Shown here one piece after another: positions 50,167 through 59,008 of a stretch of DNA of 59,096 nt. Source of the stretch: Candidatus Palauibacter scopulicola. GTDB taxonomy: Bacteria > Gemmatimonadota > Gemmatimonadetes > Palauibacterales > Palauibacteraceae. The notes under the pieces were generated by a model. It was not told the DNA's origin. It made no database searches and saw nothing but the letters and a program-made list of their open reading frames with translations. The translations under genes were made by a program, and so were the position numbers. The stretch spans positions 1-59,096 of the forward strand of contig NZ_CANPWG010000028.1 in NCBI RefSeq assembly GCF_947581915.1. The letters are read 5' to 3'. Position 1 is the first letter of the stretch. The number at the start of each line of letters is the position of its first letter.

Positions 50167-50952
50167 ATGGAAAGCGGGCAACTTCATACGGTGGGGGAGG
50201 TCGCGCGGCTGGCCGGCGTGACGGTGCGCACGCTGCATCACTACGACCGGATCGGGCTGCTCGTTCCGTCGGGGCGGGCGGAGAACGGGTATCGGCTCTA
50301 CGCCTACGACGACCTCGAGCGGCTGCGCCAGATCCGGCTGATGCGCGAGCTGCGGTTCAGCCTGGACGCGATCGGCCGGCTGCTCGACGCCCCCGCCTAC
50401 GACCGGCGGAGCGCGCTGGAGGCGCAGCGTGAGTTGCTCAGGGAACGACAGCGGAGGACCGACGGCATCATCCGAGGGGTCGACCGGGCCCTGAGGGCGA
50501 TGGATGAGGAGACGGAGATGGACAGGACGGAGATGTTCGAGGGGTTGGAGGAGTTCGATCACGAGCAGTACCGGGAGGAGGTCGAGCGGCGCTGGGGCGG
50601 CACGGAGGCCTACGCGGAGTCGATACGGCGCACGCGCGGGTACGGCAAGGACGACTGGGCGCGGATCACCGAGGAGGGCGAGACGGTGGTGGCCGGGCTG
50701 GCCGCGCTGATGGCGGAGGGCGCCCAGGCCGCCGGACGCGCGGCGATGGACCTGGCCGAGGAGCACCGGCGCCACATCGACCGCTGGTTCTATCCGTGCA
50801 GCCACGGCATGCACCGGAACCTCGCCGACATGTACACCGCCGACGCGCGCTTCGAGGCGTACTTCGAGAAGCGCGGGGAGGGGCTCGCCGTATTCGTGCA
50901 GGACGCGATCCGCGCCAACGAAGCCCGCTGGAGAAACCGTGAGCGTGAGTGA
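50167..50952 (+). CDS. MerR family regulator with TipAS effector domain
   Basis: 261 residues. MerR DNA-binding half: YTVGEVARLAGVTVRTLHHYDRIGLLVPSGRAENGYRLY pattern (here LHTVGEVARLAG), then the coiled-coil dimer helix (ALEAQRELLRERQRRTDGIIRGVDRALRAM). Residues about 125-255 are a TipAS-type drug-binding domain (FEGLEEFDHEQYREEVERRWGGTEAY...HRRHIDRWFYPCSHGMHRNLADMYTADARFEAYFEK). TipA binds thiopeptide and other hydrophobic antibiotics and activates resistance genes. The natural ligand here is unknown. Confidence 0.93.
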   Translation: MESGQLHTVGEVARLAGVTVRTLHHYDRIGLLVPSGRAENGYRLYAYDDLERLRQIRLMRELRFSLDAIGRLLDAPAYDRRSALEAQRELLRERQRRTDGIIRGVDRALRAMDEETEMDRTEMFEGLEEFDHEQYREEVERRWGGTEAYAESIRRTRGYGKDDWARITEEGETVVAGLAALMAEGAQAAGRAAMDLAEEHRRHIDRWFYPCSHGMHRNLADMYTADARFEAYFEKRGEGLAVFVQDAIRANEARWRNRERE

Positions 50953-50978
50953 TGCGCGGGCCTCGCGTGACAGGGGGC

Positions 50979-50997
50979 GATAATGCGTTATCATTAT
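50979..50997. promoter_or_regulatory. Fur/Zur-type operator before the regulator gene
   Basis: GATAATGCGTTATCATTAT: GATAA and TTATC arms form a 14-base dyad overlapped by an ATAATG...CATTAT dyad. It matches the site at 51444-51463 in 14 of 17 aligned bases. It lies 29 bases upstream of ATG 51026 and would block transcription of the regulator itself. Confidence 0.75.
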
Positions 50998-51025
50998 GGT
51001 CCAACTGCACGGGGGGTGTACTTCG

Positions 51026-51394
51026 ATGCAACGAGATACTCGACAACGCCGCGCGATTCGCCGCGTGTTCACGAACGCGGGGCGCCCGCTCACGCTCGAC
51101 GAGATCCTCGAGTACGGCCAGCGGATCGTGCCGTCGCTCGGCGTGGCGACCGTCTACCGGAACGTGAAGACCCTGGTCCGCGAGGGGTGGCTGTCGAGGG
51201 TGAAGCTCCCGGGCGGCGGGCTTCGCTACGAGTTGGCCGACCGTCCGCATCACCACCATTTCCTCTGCAACTCCTGCGACCAGGCGTTCGACGTCCACCG
51301 GTGCCCCGACGAGGTCGAGACGCTGGCGCCCGACGGCTTCCAGGTCGACAGCCACGAGTTGGTTCTCTTCGGCCGCTGCGCGGCGTGCGCGTGA
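51026..51394 (+). CDS. zur: Fur-family metal regulator, probably Zur
   Basis: 122 residues from ATG 51026 (GGGGG upstream; an ATG at 50996 lies inside the operator and is rejected). A winged helix (RAIRRVFTNAGRPLTLDEILEYG...GVATVYRNVKTLVREGWLSRVKL) leads to the metal half: HHHHF at 75-79, CNSC at 81-84 and CAAC at 118-121, the structural Cys4 zinc site. This is the Fur/Zur/PerR family. Zur is favoured because the next gene resembles the zinc receptor ZnuD and both share one operator sequence. Confidence 0.88.
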   Translation: MQRDTRQRRAIRRVFTNAGRPLTLDEILEYGQRIVPSLGVATVYRNVKTLVREGWLSRVKLPGGGLRYELADRPHHHHFLCNSCDQAFDVHRCPDEVETLAPDGFQVDSHELVLFGRCAACA

Positions 51395-51513: not shown

Positions 51514-53559
51514 ATGATGATGTCCAGACGCTCCTACATCCTCTTTCTCCTCCTCGGAATCACCCTCGCGGGCGTGCCGGCGGGCGCCGCGGGCTCGCCG
51601 CCGGTCGCGCAGCAGGCCGCGCACGAGCAGCAGGCCGCGGACACCGTCGAGGTGGCCTCCGAGGTCGCCGCCATCACCCTGCCGGACATCGTCGTCACGG
51701 CGGTCCTGAGTCCCACGGCCGTGAGCGAGGCGATCCGGCCTTCCGCCGTCTTCTCGGACGAGACGCTGCAGCGGCACCTCGCGGGAACCCTCGCGCAGAC
51801 GGTGGAATCGGTTCCGGGGGTCACCGTGACCAGCATGGGGCCGGGCACGTCCCAGCCCGTCATCCGCGGCCTGAGCGGAGACCGCATCCTCGTGCTCGAG
51901 GACGGACAGAGGGTGGGGGACGTCCTCAGCAGCGGCCCGGACCACGCCTCGGCGGTCACCACCTCCTCCGCTCAGCGGATCGACGTGATTCGCGGACCGA
52001 GCGCGATCCTGTACGGCAGCAACGCGCTCGGGGGCGTGATCAACGTGATTCGGGATGAGGTTCCGCGGACGGTGCCTGGCCGCGCGACCGGGTTCACCTC
52101 GCTTCAGGGGCAGGGAGCGACCCGCGGCATCGGGGGGAGCAGCCAGCTCACCGTCGGCGTCACCGAGAACATCCCGCTTCGCGTCGAGGTCTCGAAGCGC
52201 GAGGGAGGGGACCTGCGGACGCCCATCGGGAGGCTGGTGGGCACCCAGACCGATGTGCGGAGCGTGGCGGCCGGAACGTCATGGGTGGACGACTGGGGCT
52301 ACGCGGGCGGTTCGTTTCGCTACTTCGCGAACGACTACGGGATCCCCGGAGGTTTCGTCGGCGGCCACACGAACGCGGTGCGCACGGAGCAGGAGCGAGC
52401 CGCCGGCCGGCTCCGCAGCGTCATCCGGCCCGGGCACGGCCTGGAGGCGATCGAAGTCGATGCCGGCTACACGTGGTACCGGCACCACGAGATGGAACCC
52501 CCGGACATCCTCGGCGCCCAATACGATCGCGAGATCGTGAGCGGGGAGGCCCGGGCGCGGCACGCGGGATGGGGGCCGTTCGCATCGGGGGCCGTCGGGG
52601 CGAGAGTCTCGTGGGAAGACTTCGGATTCGCGGGCGCGCTGTACACCCCGAATTCGCGGCGCAGGACGCAGGCCGCATACCTCCTCGAGGAGATTCGACT
52701 CGATCCGGTCAGGGTCGAGGCCGGGCTCCGCTACGACCGGGTCGAACTTGAACCGGAGGAGGAAGACGCGTCCTCCGACATCGGACACATCCGCGCGCGT
52801 TCCTTCGACGCGGTCTCCGGATCGCTGGGCGCGCTTCTGCCGGTGACGGGGCAGTTCACCCTCGGCGCGAGCGTGGGTCGCGCCTTTCGTACCCCCGATG
52901 TACACGAACTCTACTCGGAGGGGCCGCACCTCGCGGCCAATTCATACGACGTCGGCAATCCCTCGCTCGAGACGGAGAAGGGGCTCGGCATCGACGTGTT
53001 CGGGCGCGTCACGGGACAGCGCGTGAGCGCCGAGGCGACGTGGTTCAGGAACACGATCGCGGGCTACATTTTTCCGCAGGCGACGGGGCGACTCAGCCGC
53101 GTACGGCTCCCCATCTATCAGTTCGTGGGGGAGGACGCCGTGCTGACCGGCTTCGAGAGCCAGCTCGAATGGTCGGTGCCGGCCGGATTCAGGCTGGAGG
53201 CCGCCGCGTCGTACGTGCGCGGCACGATCCGCGCCACCGACGAGCCCCTCCCGTTCATGCCCCCGCTCCAGGGTCGCGTGGCGATCGGCTATTCGCCGGT
53301 GAACTGGTTCGTGGAGGCCGAGACGCGGATGGCCTCAAGCCAGGAACGGACCGGGCGGTTCGAGGACCCCACCGATGGATACGCGGTCTTCGGCTTCTCC
53401 GGCGGCGTGCGCTTCACCTTCGCCGGGCGGCCGCACGTCCTGACGCTCCACCTCGACAACATCGGCAACACGGAGTACAGGCGGCACCTGTCGCGGGTGA
53501 AGGAGATCATGCCCGAGGCCGGGAGGAGCCTGAGCGTGACGTACCGCGTCGTGTACTAG
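51514..53559 (+). CDS. znuD: ZnuD-like TonB-dependent receptor (putative zinc uptake)
   Basis: 681 residues. Signal peptide (YILFLLLGITLAGVPAGAAG), TonB box-like segment (LPDIVVTAVL), plug (LAQTVESVPGVTV...PVIRGLSGDRILVLEDGQRVGDVLSSGPDHASAVTTSSAQRIDVIRGPSAILYGSNALGGVINV) and a beta barrel. The GPDHA plug segment and the C-terminal YRRHLSRVKEIMPEAGRSLSVTYRVVY resemble ZnuD zinc receptors, whose C-terminus reads NHLSPLKD..PEMGRN. It should import zinc (possibly a zinc chelate) using TonB energy. It follows the Zur gene by 119 bases with its own operator. Confidence 0.88.
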   Translation: MMMSRRSYILFLLLGITLAGVPAGAAGSPPVAQQAAHEQQAADTVEVASEVAAITLPDIVVTAVLSPTAVSEAIRPSAVFSDETLQRHLAGTLAQTVESVPGVTVTSMGPGTSQPVIRGLSGDRILVLEDGQRVGDVLSSGPDHASAVTTSSAQRIDVIRGPSAILYGSNALGGVINVIRDEVPRTVPGRATGFTSLQGQGATRGIGGSSQLTVGVTENIPLRVEVSKREGGDLRTPIGRLVGTQTDVRSVAAGTSWVDDWGYAGGSFRYFANDYGIPGGFVGGHTNAVRTEQERAAGRLRSVIRPGHGLEAIEVDAGYTWYRHHEMEPPDILGAQYDREIVSGEARARHAGWGPFASGAVGARVSWEDFGFAGALYTPNSRRRTQAAYLLEEIRLDPVRVEAGLRYDRVELEPEEEDASSDIGHIRARSFDAVSGSLGALLPVTGQFTLGASVGRAFRTPDVHELYSEGPHLAANSYDVGNPSLETEKGLGIDVFGRVTGQRVSAEATWFRNTIAGYIFPQATGRLSRVRLPIYQFVGEDAVLTGFESQLEWSVPAGFRLEAAASYVRGTIRATDEPLPFMPPLQGRVAIGYSPVNWFVEAETRMASSQERTGRFEDPTDGYAVFGFSGGVRFTFAGRPHVLTLHLDNIGNTEYRRHLSRVKEIMPEAGRSLSVTYRVVY

Positions 53560-53690: not shown

Positions 53691-54230
53691 ATGACGGTTT
53701 TCGAGGAGCATAGAGACGCCTTCGCCAGCGCGGAGGCGTTCTGCGGCCGCGTGGCGGCGGGGTTCGCCGTCGCCGGCGGGGTCGCACTCGCTGTGCTGCT
53801 GGCCATCACGGTGGCCGAGGTCTTCTGGCGCTACGTCCTCAACGATTCCCTGCTCTGGATCGAGGACGTCTCGACGATGTCGCTCGCCGTCGTCGTGGCG
53901 GCGGCGGTCGCGTACGGCGCGCGCGAGGGCTCGCACGTGTGCGTGAACCTGCTCGCGCGCCTCGCGGGCCGGCGCGTCACGAGGATCACGGACGCCGTCG
54001 CCCGGCTGCTCGGCGTGGGCGCGACCGCCGCGGCCGCGTACGCGCTGTTCGCGCACGGCAGTTGCGGTCTTCCCTGCGGCGCCGTCACCGGCAGCGTGTC
54101 GATCCCGCACCTCCCGTTCTACTACGCGCTCGGCGCGTCGCTCGCCGCCTACGGACTGCTGCTCCTGTCCCAACTCCTCCTGGGGTTCGCGGCGTGGAAC
54201 GCCGAAGACCCCAACGAGCCGGCCGAGTGA
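53691..54230 (+). CDS. TRAP transporter small permease (DctQ-like)
   Basis: 179 residues with four membrane helices in the DctQ pattern: LAVLLAITVAEVFWRYVLNDSLLWIEDVSTMSLAVVVAAAVAYGAREGSHVCVNLLARL. The C-terminus ends NEPAE. Works with the large permease as the membrane part of a TRAP transporter. The stop shares one base with the dctM start (TGATG), so the two are coupled. RBS GGGGG. Confidence 0.9.
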   Translation: MTVFEEHRDAFASAEAFCGRVAAGFAVAGGVALAVLLAITVAEVFWRYVLNDSLLWIEDVSTMSLAVVVAAAVAYGAREGSHVCVNLLARLAGRRVTRITDAVARLLGVGATAAAAYALFAHGSCGLPCGAVTGSVSIPHLPFYYALGASLAAYGLLLLSQLLLGFAAWNAEDPNEPAE

Positions 54231-55534
54231 TGGACGGGACCGGCATCGCCCTCGCGGGCTTTCTCGCCCTCTTCGTCCTGCTCTTCATCCGGGTGCCGGT
54301 GGGGCTGGCGATGCTCGTCGTGGGCCTCGGCGGGATCGCCGCGGTCCGCCCGGGCGCCGTCACGGCGGTGCTGGCGGGCGAGATCTTCGCCGTCGCCTCG
54401 CGCTATCCCCTCACCATCCTCCCGCTGTTCATGCTGATGGGGAGTCTGGCCGTCGTCTCCGGGATGAGTCGGGACCTGTACCGCGCGGCCCACAGCTGGC
54501 TGGGCCGCTTCCGGGGCAGTCTCGCGTCCGCGTCGATCGTCGCCTGCGCCGGGTTCTCGGCCCTTTCCGGCTCGTCGCTGGCCGCCGCGCTCACCATGGG
54601 CCGCGTCTCGCTGCCCGAGATGCGGCGCTTCAGGTACGACGACTCGCTCGCGACCGGGGCCATCGCCGCCGGCGGCACGCTCGGCTTCCTGATCCCGCCC
54701 TCGGCGGGCCTCGTCATCTACGGGATCGTCACCGAAGAGAGCATCGGCCGGCTGTTCATGGCCGGCGTCGTGCCCGGGATCGTGCTCACGCTGCTCTTCG
54801 TGCTCACCGTCTGGGTCGTCGTCCGCCGCGACCCGGACAAGGCGCCGCACGCCCGGAGGCCCGTTCCGTGGCGGGAGCGCCTGCGCGCCACCGCGAGCGC
54901 CGCGTGGATCGTGGGCATCGTCATCGTGACCATCGGCGGCATCTACGCCGGCATCTTCTCCGCCATCGAGGCGGCCGGCGTCGGCGCGTGCCTCACGCTC
55001 ATCGCGGCCTGCGTGCGGCGGGCCCTGAACCGGAAGACGGTCGTCGACGTCGTCAACGGAACGCTGAAAGCGAGCGGCACGGCGTTCCTCGTCCTGTTCG
55101 GCGCCTTCGTGTTCAAGGTCTTCCTCGGACTCACGGGCATCGCGTTCGTCGCGGCGGAGTGGGTCGGCGAGCAGGGGTTTTCGGGCGCGCAGGTCGTCGT
55201 GCTCGTGCTGCTCATGTTCATCGTGCTCGGCACCTTCCTGGACGGGTTCGCGATGCTCGTGCTGACCGTGCCACTCGTGCAGCCGATCCTCGAGTCGCTG
55301 GGGGTGGACATGATCTGGTTCGGCGTGATGATCGTGGTCACGCTCGAGATGGGCCTGATCTCGCCGCCCGTGGGGCTCAACATCTTCGTGGTGAAGGGGG
55401 TCGCGCCGGACGTGGCGGTGCGCACGATGTTCCGCGGCATCCTGCCGTTCTGGCTCGCGATGCTGGCGGCGCTGATCCTGATCGCGCTCTTCCCGCGCAT
55501 CGCCACGTTCCTCCCGAACGCGATGTACGGATGA
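54230..55534 (+). CDS. TRAP transporter large permease (DctM-like)
   Basis: 434 residues, about twelve membrane helices: FIRVPVGLAMLVVGLGGI, YPLTILPLFMLMGSLAVVSGMSRDLYRAA, GFSALSGSSLAAALTMGRVSLPEMRRFRYDDSLATGAIAAGGTLGFLIPPSAGLVIYGIVTEESIGRLFMAGVVPGI, and EMGLISPPVGLNIFVVKGVAPDV near the C-terminus. These are the DctM signature segments. It carries sodium-driven import of a solute delivered by the binding protein at 57343. Confidence 0.95.
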   Translation: MDGTGIALAGFLALFVLLFIRVPVGLAMLVVGLGGIAAVRPGAVTAVLAGEIFAVASRYPLTILPLFMLMGSLAVVSGMSRDLYRAAHSWLGRFRGSLASASIVACAGFSALSGSSLAAALTMGRVSLPEMRRFRYDDSLATGAIAAGGTLGFLIPPSAGLVIYGIVTEESIGRLFMAGVVPGIVLTLLFVLTVWVVVRRDPDKAPHARRPVPWRERLRATASAAWIVGIVIVTIGGIYAGIFSAIEAAGVGACLTLIAACVRRALNRKTVVDVVNGTLKASGTAFLVLFGAFVFKVFLGLTGIAFVAAEWVGEQGFSGAQVVVLVLLMFIVLGTFLDGFAMLVLTVPLVQPILESLGVDMIWFGVMIVVTLEMGLISPPVGLNIFVVKGVAPDVAVRTMFRGILPFWLAMLAALILIALFPRIATFLPNAMYG

Positions 55535-55563
55535 GGGTCCACGGATGAGAGTCCACGGATGAG
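55529..55563 (+). repeat. Tandem 14-bp repeat spanning the dctM stop and NCS2 start
   Basis: GGATGAGGGTCCAC, then GGATGAGAGTCCAC, then GGATGAG. The first copy contains the dctM stop (TGA 55532-55534) and the last contains the NCS2 start (ATG 55559). It looks like slippage duplication of the intergenic junction and provides three ATG triplets. Confidence 0.8.
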
Positions 55564-57346
55564 CGCGGCCGACGGTCTCCGATACGAGGTGGAGGACCGG
55601 GTTCCGGGGCCGGTCGCCCTGGGGCTCGGCCTGCAGCTCGCCGCGATGGGGATCAACGGGGCCGTGCTGATCCCGACGATCGTGTTCCAGGCGGGGGGCG
55701 CCGACGAACTCGTGCTGTGGGCGGTGTTCGCCTCCGTCCTCGCGTGCAGCGTCGCCACCATCCTCCAGGGCCGGCGCGTGGGGCGGATCGGAGCGGGGTA
55801 CGCGCTGCCGCACGTCAGTTCGGCGATCTTCATCGGCGTGTGCGCGGAGGCGCTGATCCAGGGAGGACCGGGGCTGCTCGCCACGCTGGTCGTCCTCTCG
55901 GCGCTCGCGCAGGCGGCGTTTTCCGCGCGGCTCTCGCTGCTGCACCGGGTGCTGACGCCCGTCATCACGGGGACGGTGGTCATGCTCCTTCCCGTCACGG
56001 TGATGCCGATCCTCTTCGGCATGCTCAACGAGTTGCCGCCGGGAGCCCCCGTGCCGGCCGGGCCGCTGAGCGCCGCCGTGACGATCGTCGCCACCCTCGG
56101 GATCGCGCTCCGGACGAGAGGGACGCTCCGCCTCTGGGCCCCCGCCATCGGCATCCTCGCCGGCTCCGTGACCGGGGCGGCCTTCGGCATCTACGACACC
56201 GGCCTCGTGGCCGACGCCGACTGGATCGGCTTCCCGGTCGGCGGGCCGCCCGCGCTGGACGTCGGCTTCGGCCCCGCGTTCTGGGGATTGCTGCCCGCGT
56301 TCCTGTTCGTGGCGCTCGTCGGCACGACCAAGTCGGTCGCCGTCGCGGTCGCCGCCCAGCGCCTGTCGTGGCGCCGGCCGCGGGCGGTCGATTATCGCGC
56401 CGTGCAGCGTGCCGTGGCCGCGAAGGGCGCCGGGAACCTGCTCGCGGGCCTGGCGGGAACGATGCCGAACACGCTCAACGTGAACGCCGTGGCCGCCATC
56501 GAGGTCACGGGCGTCGCGGCGCGCCGGGTCGGCGTCGCGGCCGGACTCGTCTTCCTCGTCCTCGCCTTCGTCCCCAAGGCGCTCGCCCTCATTCTCGCCA
56601 TTCCCGGAGCCGTCGTGGCCGCCGCCATGGCCGTGATCATGGCCACGCTGTTCACGGTCGGGATGCGCGAGGTCGCGCGGAGCATCGGGTCGAACCCCCG
56701 CAACGGCATCATCGCGGGCGTCTCGTTCTGGACGGGCGTCGCCTGCGAGTTCGACATGATCTTTCCCGCATTCTTCGCGGAGTTCGCGGGCGGGCTGCTG
56801 AGCAGCGGGCTCACGACGGGAGGCCTGGTGGCGCTGCTGCTCACGGGGCTCACCGCGCGGCGGAAGCGCCGGCTCAGGGGCACGCTCGACATGGCCGAAC
56901 TGCCCCGGATCCGTGAGTTCATCCAGGCCTTCTCGGCCCGGCACGGGCTGGCGCCGGTCCTGGACCGGCTCGAAGCCGCGAGCGAGGAGGCGCTGCTCAC
57001 GCTCCTGGAGTCGCGGGAGGCGGCGGCGGCGAAGGAGGCGGACGGGGCGGACGAGACGGAGGGAACACCGGACGATGGGAGGCGCGAACTGCTCCTGACG
57101 GCGAGCGTGGAGGACGACGAGGCCGTGCTGGAGTTCCGGGTCGGCGCCGAGGACAGCGACGATCTCAACCTCCAGGACCGCCTGGCCTGGCTCGAGGCCG
57201 ACACCCCGGCGGCCGACGTGGAGCAGGAGATCTCGCTCCGGCTGCTCCGGCATCTCGCCTCCTCCGTCCGGCACCGGCAGTTTCACGACGTGGACATCCT
57301 GACCCTCCGAGTTTCCGCCGTCCCCGAGCGCGAGTCCCGCCAATGA
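55559..57346 (+). CDS. NCS2 (xanthine/uracil) permease fused to a degenerate HATPase-like domain
   Basis: 595 residues. Residues about 15-440 form an NCS2 nucleobase permease with about 14 segments (GLGLQLAAMGINGAVLIPTIVFQAGG, VATLGIALRT, LPAFLFVALVGTTKSVAV, GTMPNTLNVNAVAAIEVTGVAARRVGVAAG). Residues 443-590 are extra: ELPRIREFIQAFSARHGLAPVLDRLEAASEEALLTLLE, a variable acidic stretch, then ELLLTASVEDDEAVLEFRVG and the final SLRLLRHLASSVRHRQFHDVDILTLRV. Their order resembles RsbW/HATPase_c_2 kinases, with the N-box altered. Lies inside a TRAP operon; its stop overlaps dctP (ATGA). Confidence 0.85.
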   Translation: MSAADGLRYEVEDRVPGPVALGLGLQLAAMGINGAVLIPTIVFQAGGADELVLWAVFASVLACSVATILQGRRVGRIGAGYALPHVSSAIFIGVCAEALIQGGPGLLATLVVLSALAQAAFSARLSLLHRVLTPVITGTVVMLLPVTVMPILFGMLNELPPGAPVPAGPLSAAVTIVATLGIALRTRGTLRLWAPAIGILAGSVTGAAFGIYDTGLVADADWIGFPVGGPPALDVGFGPAFWGLLPAFLFVALVGTTKSVAVAVAAQRLSWRRPRAVDYRAVQRAVAAKGAGNLLAGLAGTMPNTLNVNAVAAIEVTGVAARRVGVAAGLVFLVLAFVPKALALILAIPGAVVAAAMAVIMATLFTVGMREVARSIGSNPRNGIIAGVSFWTGVACEFDMIFPAFFAEFAGGLLSSGLTTGGLVALLLTGLTARRKRRLRGTLDMAELPRIREFIQAFSARHGLAPVLDRLEAASEEALLTLLESREAAAAKEADGADETEGTPDDGRRELLLTASVEDDEAVLEFRVGAEDSDDLNLQDRLAWLEADTPAADVEQEISLRLLRHLASSVRHRQFHDVDILTLRVSAVPERESRQ

Positions 57347-58356
57347 CGCGCGCGAGGGCGGCGCTCGTCCTCGGACTGCTCGCCGGGGGCGGGGTCGCGG
57401 GCGGATGCGGAGAAACGTCCGACACGGGCGGTACGAGGGAGTTGTCGCTGGCGCACTTCCTGCCGGCGGATCACGTCCTCACCGGAGACATGTTCACGCC
57501 GTTAGGGGAGAAACTCGCGGAACTCTCGGGCGGCAAGCTCACCGTCCGGCAGTTCCCCGCCGGGGCCCTGAACTCGGCGGCGCCGGCGCAGTACTCGATC
57601 CTGCGGAGCGGCGTGGCCGACATCGCCCTCGCCATTCCCGCCTACACGCCGGACCTCTTTCCGAAGACGGACCTCATCGCCTACCCGGGCATCTGCAAGA
57701 CCGCGGTAGCGTGCACCGAGGCCATGCGGCGCGCCCGGCCGGCGCTGGAGGCGGAGTACGACGCGAAGGTCCTGGGGCTGTGGGCCAACGACGCCGCGGT
57801 GCTGCTCACGCGCGAGAGGCCGGTGCGGACGCTCGAGGACATGAGCGGGCTCAAGATCCGGGTCTCGACGCGGAGCCTCATCCCATTCATCGAGGCGCTC
57901 GGCGCGAGCGCGGTCATGCAGCCCGGCACCGTGGTCCACCAGAGCCTGACCACCGGCGTCATCGACGGCGTCGCCATCTCCCCGTCGGGGATCGGGACGT
58001 TCCAGCTTCACGAGCCCGCCGCCTACCTCACGACCTGGCTCCCCACGTCCGGCCTGCCCTTCGTCCTGCTGATGAACCGCGGGGTCTACGAGACCCTGTC
58101 ACCCGAGGAACGGGGCTGGATCGATGAAGCCGCGGACGCCTCCCTGTCGATGGCCGGGGCCACCGCCTACGCGCGCGCCGGCGCCGACGGCCTGCGGATG
58201 GCGCAGGAAGCCGGCGTCGAGATCATCGACCTCCCCGAGAACGAGATCCGCCGCTTCGAACAGGCCATCGCCCCCGCCCGCGCCGCCGGCCTCGACCGCC
58301 AGGTCGGCGACATGACCGCCGCCGACGTCATCCGCCTCTTCGGCGGGGCGCCCTAG
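57343..58356 (+). CDS. TRAP transporter solute-binding protein (DctP-like lipoprotein)
   Basis: 337 residues. Lipoprotein signal (LVLGLLAGGGVAGGC), then the DctP fold: LSLAHFLPADHVLTGDMFTPLGEKLAELSGGKLTVRQFPAGAL, the conserved arginine region LEDMSGLKIRVSTRSLIPFIEALGASAVMQP, and HQSLTTGVIDGVAISPSG. A lipid anchor, rather than the usual soluble periplasmic form, is noteworthy. Binds the ligand for the permease encoded upstream. ATG 57343 overlaps the stop of the NCS2 gene. Ligand unknown. Confidence 0.93.
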   Translation: MTRARAALVLGLLAGGGVAGGCGETSDTGGTRELSLAHFLPADHVLTGDMFTPLGEKLAELSGGKLTVRQFPAGALNSAAPAQYSILRSGVADIALAIPAYTPDLFPKTDLIAYPGICKTAVACTEAMRRARPALEAEYDAKVLGLWANDAAVLLTRERPVRTLEDMSGLKIRVSTRSLIPFIEALGASAVMQPGTVVHQSLTTGVIDGVAISPSGIGTFQLHEPAAYLTTWLPTSGLPFVLLMNRGVYETLSPEERGWIDEAADASLSMAGATAYARAGADGLRMAQEAGVEIIDLPENEIRRFEQAIAPARAAGLDRQVGDMTAADVIRLFGGAP

Positions 58357-58396: not shown

Positions 58397-59008
58397 ATGA
58401 CGCCGGGACAGCTTCTTGCGTTCAACGTGGCTCTGCTGTTCGCGATCGCGAGCCCGGGGCCCGCCCTCCTGGTGGCCGTTCAGACCACGCTCCGCTCCGG
58501 ACGCGCGGCCGGAATCGCCGTCGGGGCCGGGCTCGGTGCGATGGCCGCGACGTGGACGCTGCTCGCCGCGGGCGGGCTGGGACTCATCTTCGAGCGGCTG
58601 CCGTGGCTGTACGGGTCCATGAGAACCGCCGGGGCGCTCTACCTGTTCTACCTCGCGTACCGGATGTGGACGAACGCCGCGAAACCCCCGCAGGCCCGCT
58701 CCGCTCCCAACCGGCAGGCTTTCCTCCGGGGCGTTCTCATCAATCTGTCGAACCCCAAGTCGGTGCTCTTCGCGGCCGCCGTGATCGTCGCGGTCTTTCC
58801 CGCCGGATTGAGTCCGGCCAACGGTCTCGTGATCGTCGCCAACCACCTCCTGGTCGAGATCGTGTTCTACACGACGCTCGCCTTCTGCATGAGCACACAG
58901 GCGGTCGCCGCGCGCTACATGCGGGCGAGACTCTACCTCGATCGCGCCTCGGCCTCGATTCTCGGCGCCCTCGGGCTCTGGATCGCCGTTTCGGCCCTCG
59001 CTGTGTGA
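58397..59008 (+). CDS. LysE family amino acid exporter
   Basis: 203 residues, five to six helices: LLAFNVALLFAIASPGPALLVAVQTTLRSGRAAGIAVGAGLGAMAATWTLLAAGGLGLIF holds the LysE signature (SPGP and GxxxG), followed by AFLRGVLINLSNPKSVLFAAAVIVAVFP and a C-terminal helix pair. Exports amino acids or related metabolites across the inner membrane. Starts 40 bases after the TRAP binding-protein gene, and may be in that operon. Confidence 0.92.
   Translation: MTPGQLLAFNVALLFAIASPGPALLVAVQTTLRSGRAAGIAVGAGLGAMAATWTLLAAGGLGLIFERLPWLYGSMRTAGALYLFYLAYRMWTNAAKPPQARSAPNRQAFLRGVLINLSNPKSVLFAAAVIVAVFPAGLSPANGLVIVANHLLVEIVFYTTLAFCMSTQAVAARYMRARLYLDRASASILGALGLWIAVSALAV

Follow-up and report, generated by a model that had tools for sequence, protein, structure and literature searches.

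A UraA/UapA-fold transporter with a degenerate RsbW-like C-terminal domain in Candidatus Palauibacter scopulicola and other bacteria

Candidatus Palauibacter scopulicola encodes a 595-residue protein in which an NCS2/SLC23-type membrane domain is joined to a degenerate RsbW-like domain. The gene lies in the window, a stretch of 59,096 nucleotides (contig NZ_CANPWG010000028.1 of assembly GCF_947581915.1, positions 1 to 59,096). Computation established the order of the two domains, the fold of the second, the loss of its ATP boxes, its conservation across phyla, the purifying selection acting on it, and the linkage of the gene to TRAP transporter genes. For the protein as a whole, we lean toward an elevator transporter of the UraA/UapA fold that carries an RsbW-derived regulatory tail working without ATP. 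Both halves are known. No description of the NCS2-pseudoRsbW combination was found in the open-access literature; automatic domain databases may list it.

Architecture of the fusion gene

The open reading frame that the first-pass annotation had assigned to this gene was recovered at the same coordinates (Table 1). The AlphaFold model of the full-length protein has a pLDDT of 87 and a pTM of 0.83. PF00860 (Xan_ur_permease) covers residues 23-395 (E=9e-37; 127 bits, against a curated Pfam cut-off of 27) and is the only Pfam family matched by the window's fusion protein; its own tail has no significant Pfam match, PF13581 included. An extension of about 150 residues had been described after the NCS2 domain. 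It is present, but it starts near residue 435, with a first strand at residues 437-442, slightly ahead of the residue 443 first proposed. In the full model, the extension ends near residue 586, and residues 587-595 form a loose tail.

Table 1. Features of the fusion gene and its neighbors in the window.
Feature	Residues	Positions	Strand	Basis
TonB-dependent receptor, upstream of dctQ		51514..53559	+	PF00593/PF07715
dctQ, TRAP small membrane subunit; 4-base overlap with dctM		53691..54230	+	PF04290, E=8.7e-18
dctM, TRAP large membrane subunit		54227..55534	+	PF06808, E=6.7e-92
NCS2-pseudoRsbW fusion gene		55559..57346	+	single open frame, 595 aa, ATG start
NCS2/SLC23-type membrane domain	16-432	55604..56854	+	PF00860, Foldseek
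TM8 site aligned with UapA Glu356/Asp360: Lys258, Val262	258-262	56330..56344	+	family profile alignment to UapA
TM10 part of NAT signature; Gln408/Asn409/Gly411 replaced by Asn309/Ala310/Ala312	303-318	56465..56512	+	profile alignment to UapA
Pseudo-RsbW (degenerate GHKL/HATPase_c_2) domain, ~150 residues	435-586	56861..57316	+	AlphaFold, Foldseek, PF13581 in relatives
N-box equivalent (EEALLTLLE): Glu477 kept, Asn replaced by Thr481	476-484	56984..57010	+	hhalign register to own RsbW
ATP-lid region, low confidence, without G1 box	531-557	57149..57229	+	residues 535-557 with pLDDT<50 in full model
Signature LRLLRHLASSVRHxQ(Y/F)HDxDIxT, replacing G2 box and last strands	560-582	57236..57304	+	family alignment
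dctP, TRAP substrate-binding protein; start overlaps fusion stop by 4 bases		57343..58356	+	PF03480, E=1e-34
LysE-type exporter, co-directional after dctP		58397..59008	+	open frame and Pfam

Fold of the C-terminal domain

The tail almost certainly has the RsbW-type GHKL fold. Its AlphaFold model, for which 37 relatives were in the alignment, has a pLDDT of 81 and a pTM of 0.76. The elements of the model follow one another as strand, helix, helix, strand, strand, lid, helix, strand, and strand, and the same order is found in the full-length model. A Foldseek search of the PDB with the tail model returned 16 matches at E<0.001, all of which are RsbW, SpoIIAB, or UsfX (TM 0.62-0.77 by target). 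The likeness to an anti-sigma HATPase that the first-pass annotation had seen by eye is thus borne out, with anti-sigma factors as the only matches at this threshold.

In the extension, no Pfam family recurs other than PF13581 (HATPase_c_2), which matches 15 of the 37 relatives and 8 of 9 additional or divergent members. Two family members score above its curated cut-off of 27.4 (L163 at 27.8 bits and the member on contig C13 of G291 at 29.8 bits), many score just below it, and single tail sequences are near the detection limit of profile searches. The NCBIfam model RsbA_anti_sig matches residues 447-578 of the L006 paralog (E=0.0048). When the tail was compared by hhalign with RsbW-type proteins of its own genome and of relatives, the alignment was collinear over 115 columns (E=0.0081), with a probability of only 4.9% from shallow alignments. 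Searching PDB sequences with the alignment of the tails gave no matches, so homology had to be drawn from structure and family profiles together. A STAS domain was considered as the identity of the tail and was rejected because the tail folds as RsbW and is not matched in a PF01740 search of the genome.

Loss of the ATP-binding site

The ATP-binding residues of the tail are altered, as had been claimed. The N-box Asn is absent from every aligned member (0/126), and its position is occupied by Thr, Ile, Met, Leu, Ser, Val, Phe, or Tyr. Glu477, four residues ahead of this position, is invariant (126/126). An alignment of 119 members gives the same picture, with 0/119 for the Asn and 119/119 for Glu477. 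The majority sequences are without the G1 (DxGxG) and G2 (GxGL) boxes, and divergent members keep one Gly near G2. Judged from these sequences, the loss of the N-box Asn, the G1 Asp, and most of the G2 Gly residues makes the tail probably an inactive pseudo-ATPase. A search of the divergent members for an ancestral fusion with a working ATP-binding site found none.

Asn537, in the ATP-lid region, is invariant in the aligned members. Together with LxxLxHxASSxxH (residues 560-572) it is nearly invariant across the family, an invariance that is overstated for loci L043-L122 because the motif used to scan the GTDB representative genomes includes part of the signature and biases H565, A567, S569, and H572. 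In divergent members, H565 does vary, and so do parts of the ASS stretch.

Distribution, copy number, and selection

This genome has six NCS2 genes, five of them with the tail, and the tails are 38-48% identical to that of the window protein. Of 297 genomes sampled across the phylum, 43 have the tail (9 of 119 genera); in the window's own genus it is present in 12 of the 13 genomes sampled. It also occurs in f6, a second family of the phylum, with as many as 12 copies in one genome, and there is one weak match elsewhere in the phylum. No tail is present in the listed genomes that belong to the window's family but to other genera. Among sampled genomes of other groups, the tail is present in 8 of 197 Nitrospirota, 13 of 289 Alphaproteobacteria (two weak), and 15 of 297 Acidobacteriota. 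The scan of GTDB representative genomes yielded 589 confirmed places, so the fusion recurs in other genomes, which was the check proposed at the outset. Many hosts carry 2-12 fusion copies per genome.

Every tail in the fetched loci shares its frame with an NCS2 domain and has the same junction point. The unfused domain was never seen: of the short frames fetched from G209, G035, and G059, the two that were read (L123 and L124) are frameshifted or deleted fusions. At L123:2035-3805, the reading frame of the broken fusion gene shifts after the membrane domain and ahead of the tail, which is either real or an assembly error. A long NCS2 frame in G079 was also rejected as a fusion, as its extra length is a spurious stretch at the N-terminus of an ordinary permease. 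In a Longimicrobiales genome, three fusion genes stand in tandem, two of them intact and one broken (L085:3621-8656). A tblastn search of plasmids with a divergent tail gave no match.

The tail is under purifying selection, with dN/dS values against close relatives of 0.16-0.36, similar to the 0.28-0.40 of the membrane domain. Low dN/dS and the recurrence of the tail in paralogs, sampled genomes, and GTDB places argue that the extension is not a chance feature. In a tree of the fusions the phyla are interleaved, and the window protein is 98% identical to that of L048. The interleaving is compatible with transfer, paralogy, or mis-binning.

Almost all of the 80 named loci come from bins with sponge-like isolate codes. 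For the jk18x bins, an origin in sponge (Ircinia) was verified in the literature (PMC9531527). The order to which Palauibacter belongs occurs in sponges, sediments, and soils (PMC10469786). A strict restriction of the family to sponges was rejected, as the divergent members L161 and L166-L170 come from genomes outside this named set.

Membrane domain and substrate site

The UraA/UapA 7+7 TM fold is present in the window protein, as seen with AlphaFold and Foldseek. The best Foldseek match of the full-length model is UapA (5i6c; E=2.4e-14, TMt 0.76), followed by SVCT1 and UraA. The NCBIfam scores are far under the nucleobase-symporter cut-offs (ncs2, 112 vs 291.8 bits; pbuX, 141 vs 414).

The position of UapA Glu356 in TM8 holds Lys in all 42 members of the window's clade and Glu in all 7 divergent members; Glu, Asp, Arg, Gln, or, in two cases, Lys occupies it in the remaining members. 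This register is that of the profile alignment to UapA, from which a pairwise phmmer alignment to UraA differs by four residues. In TM10, the equivalents of UapA Asn409 and Gly411 are absent in 126 of 126 rows, and Gln408 is also replaced. Glu241 and Glu290 of UraA lie at the same sites as these TM8 and TM10 residues of UapA. Both bind uracil in UraA (PMC5539350). The first-pass annotation had named the protein a nucleobase permease. The NCS2 fold stands, but the function is doubtful because the residues that coordinate the nucleobase in UraA/UapA are replaced, and a nucleobase-symporter function of the window protein is not supported by its sequence.

The probable TRAP operon of the window

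The genes dctQ, dctM, the fusion gene, and dctP are probably one operon, given the 4-base overlaps of dctQ with dctM and of the fusion gene with dctP and the gap of about 25 bases between dctM and the fusion gene. The fusion protein was considered as a TRAP component itself and was rejected, as it matches PF00860 only and P, Q, and M are encoded by separate genes. In the window's clade (L043-L084), TRAP genes adjoin the fusion gene in 38 of 42 loci, in the order dctQ-dctM-fusion-dctP or fusion-dctP-dctQ-dctM. The TRAP-linked bins of this clade are labeled Gemmatimonadota, Acidobacteriota, Bacteroidota, and Pseudomonadota, and some of these labels may be due to mis-binning.

A TonB-dependent receptor gene is also found upstream in the closest relatives L043, L044, L046, and L047, and its retention suggests a single uptake route across both membranes. 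Just upstream of the receptor gene, positions 50167-51394 of the window encode a TipAS-type MerR regulator and a Fur-family regulator. A TipA-like gene also adjoins the TRAP-less relatives L045 and L049.

Neighbors of other subfamilies

A second clade (L100, L101, L103, L108, and L113) has DctP/DctM neighbors, and its TM8/TM10 pattern is different (Gln; TMPLGFRP or similar). TRAP linkage is absent from most other subfamilies and therefore cannot explain the domain in general. The L005 paralog (L005:8-1426; L158:6378-9985, contig C62 of G000) stands directly after a gene for a CysN-CysC fusion, which functions in sulfate activation. This order recurs in the window's genus (L174-L176), and in two f6 genomes the genes are adjacent but convergent (L178 and L179). 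The L006 paralog (L159:8182-14192, contig C26 of G000), with Arg at the TM8 site, is flanked by a type I polyketide synthase gene on one side and an alpha/beta hydrolase gene on the other. The same trio recurs in L098, L106, L117, and L120, under several phylum labels, and one of the two neighbors is kept in several other loci, again under several phylum labels. At L157:8328-11498, a sister fusion gene adjoins a HipA-type gene.

Linkage of the fusion genes to a gene for a STAS protein or a sigma factor was not seen. The three STAS matches of the genome in the PF01740 search are on other contigs, and the genome encodes STAS proteins, as well as true RsbW homologs, elsewhere. The substrate-site residues vary between subfamilies along with the neighboring genes, a correlation with the operon partner that suggests substrate diversification across subfamilies.

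Proposed mechanism and alternatives

The fusion protein would act in the inner membrane as an elevator transporter with the UraA/UapA (NCS2/SLC23) fold. Its C-terminal domain would lie in the cytosol and is predicted to descend from RsbW/SpoIIAB-type anti-sigma kinases and to have lost ATP binding. Beneath the transporter dimer, the tail may itself dimerize or bind a partner protein, and it would set the activity or abundance of the transporter without ATP hydrolysis. Such a role has been proposed in SLC26 transporters for STAS, the domain normally bound by RsbW. For UraA, dimers are needed for transport (PMC5539350). SLC26 proteins have the same membrane fold and a regulatory STAS domain (PMC6497670). 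By analogy with STAS in SLC26, the tail is most likely a non-catalytic regulator that binds a dimer mate or a partner. The window's subfamily may bind an organic anion that is handled jointly with the adjacent TRAP system; we infer this more weakly, because the nucleobase/proton Glu is Lys in every member of the clade. The coupling of uptake to signaling or self-gating, which the first-pass annotation had put forward, is plausible.

The main rival, which we regard as unlikely, is a transceptor that mainly senses its substrate. Its tail would free or capture a STAS protein or sigma factor without phosphorylation, so that the transport state controls expression, for example of the neighboring TRAP operon. 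The known partners of the RsbW-like fold are STAS proteins and sigma factors, the polar residues E477, N537, H565, and H572 are invariant, and both STAS proteins and true RsbW homologs are encoded elsewhere in the genome. Precedents are the SLC26 protein DauA, which transduces signals together with DctA (PMC5703999), and Sul1/Sul2, which are sulfate transporters of yeast. However, this genome has no linked STAS gene, several subfamilies adjoin enzymes and not regulators, and the substrate-site residues vary with the neighbor as if each protein transports something.

A purely structural tail, be it a relic, a generic dimer clamp, or an assembly aid with no regulatory role, is decidedly improbable. 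The loss of all nucleotide boxes and the dimerization of both RsbW-type proteins and NCS2 transporters (for UraA, PMC5539350) would fit such a tail, but the sharply conserved motif and the invariant polar residues exceed the needs of a clamp, and the domain is kept over wide divergence in several phyla. It is very hard to credit that the tail still binds nucleotide or phosphorylates a partner through a non-canonical site using Glu477: this Glu is invariant in all 126 members and divergent members keep one G2-region Gly, but the N-box Asn is absent everywhere, the G1 Asp and most G2 Gly residues are missing in majority and divergent sequences alike, and the ATP-lid is poorly ordered in the model.

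Returning to the regulatory tail, a wider reading is put forward tentatively, as a serious possibility. The fusions may form a large and so far undescribed family of transporters whose catalytically dead regulatory tail was made from the RsbW side of the module, as the mirror of the STAS/RsbV tail of SLC26. This family would have expanded, spread chiefly among sponge symbionts, and had its substrate site re-tuned to its operon partners (TRAP organic-acid uptake, sulfate activation, and polyketide synthesis). Being abundant, found mainly in sponge-symbiont-like bins, and variable in substrate site with the operon, it may govern symbiont uptake from the host. Counts of 'xanthine permease' in such genomes should be read as nucleobase salvage only with caution. 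An enrichment of xanP in marine Gemmatimonadota was found in one comparative study (PMC11596202).

Comparison with known systems

The open-access literature on anti-sigma/STAS transporters and on RsbW pseudokinases provided background only. The fusion shares its membrane fold and order with NCS2/SLC23 transporters (UraA, UapA, XanQ, and PbuX; COG2233), whereas its TM8/TM10 substrate and proton residues are replaced and its NCBIfam ncs2 and pbuX scores are far lower. The solved UraA, UapA, and SVCT1 structures match it over the membrane domain only. With RsbW, SpoIIAB, and UsfX, the tail shares the fold, the order of strands and helices, and the catalytic-type Glu; unlike them, it is without the N-box Asn, G1, and G2, it is always joined to a transporter, and no linked STAS gene was found. 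To our knowledge, P, Q, and M are sufficient in all TRAP systems yet described. The window's subfamily sits inside a complete TRAP (DctPQM) operon in several phyla, with the fusion protein as an extra component.

The SLC26/SulP transporters with a STAS tail, such as DauA and BicA, share the class of membrane fold, and in both families the tail is cytosolic, C-terminal, and derived from an anti-sigma partner-switching system. The tail of the fusion is the RsbW side (GHKL) of that system, whereas the SLC26 tail is the RsbV side (STAS), and the membrane domain of the fusion is NCS2 and not SulP. The role of the RsbV-like tail in SLC26 is still debated. A family of sister fold with the opposite partner offers a natural counterpart for asking how transporters came under the control of anti-sigma modules.
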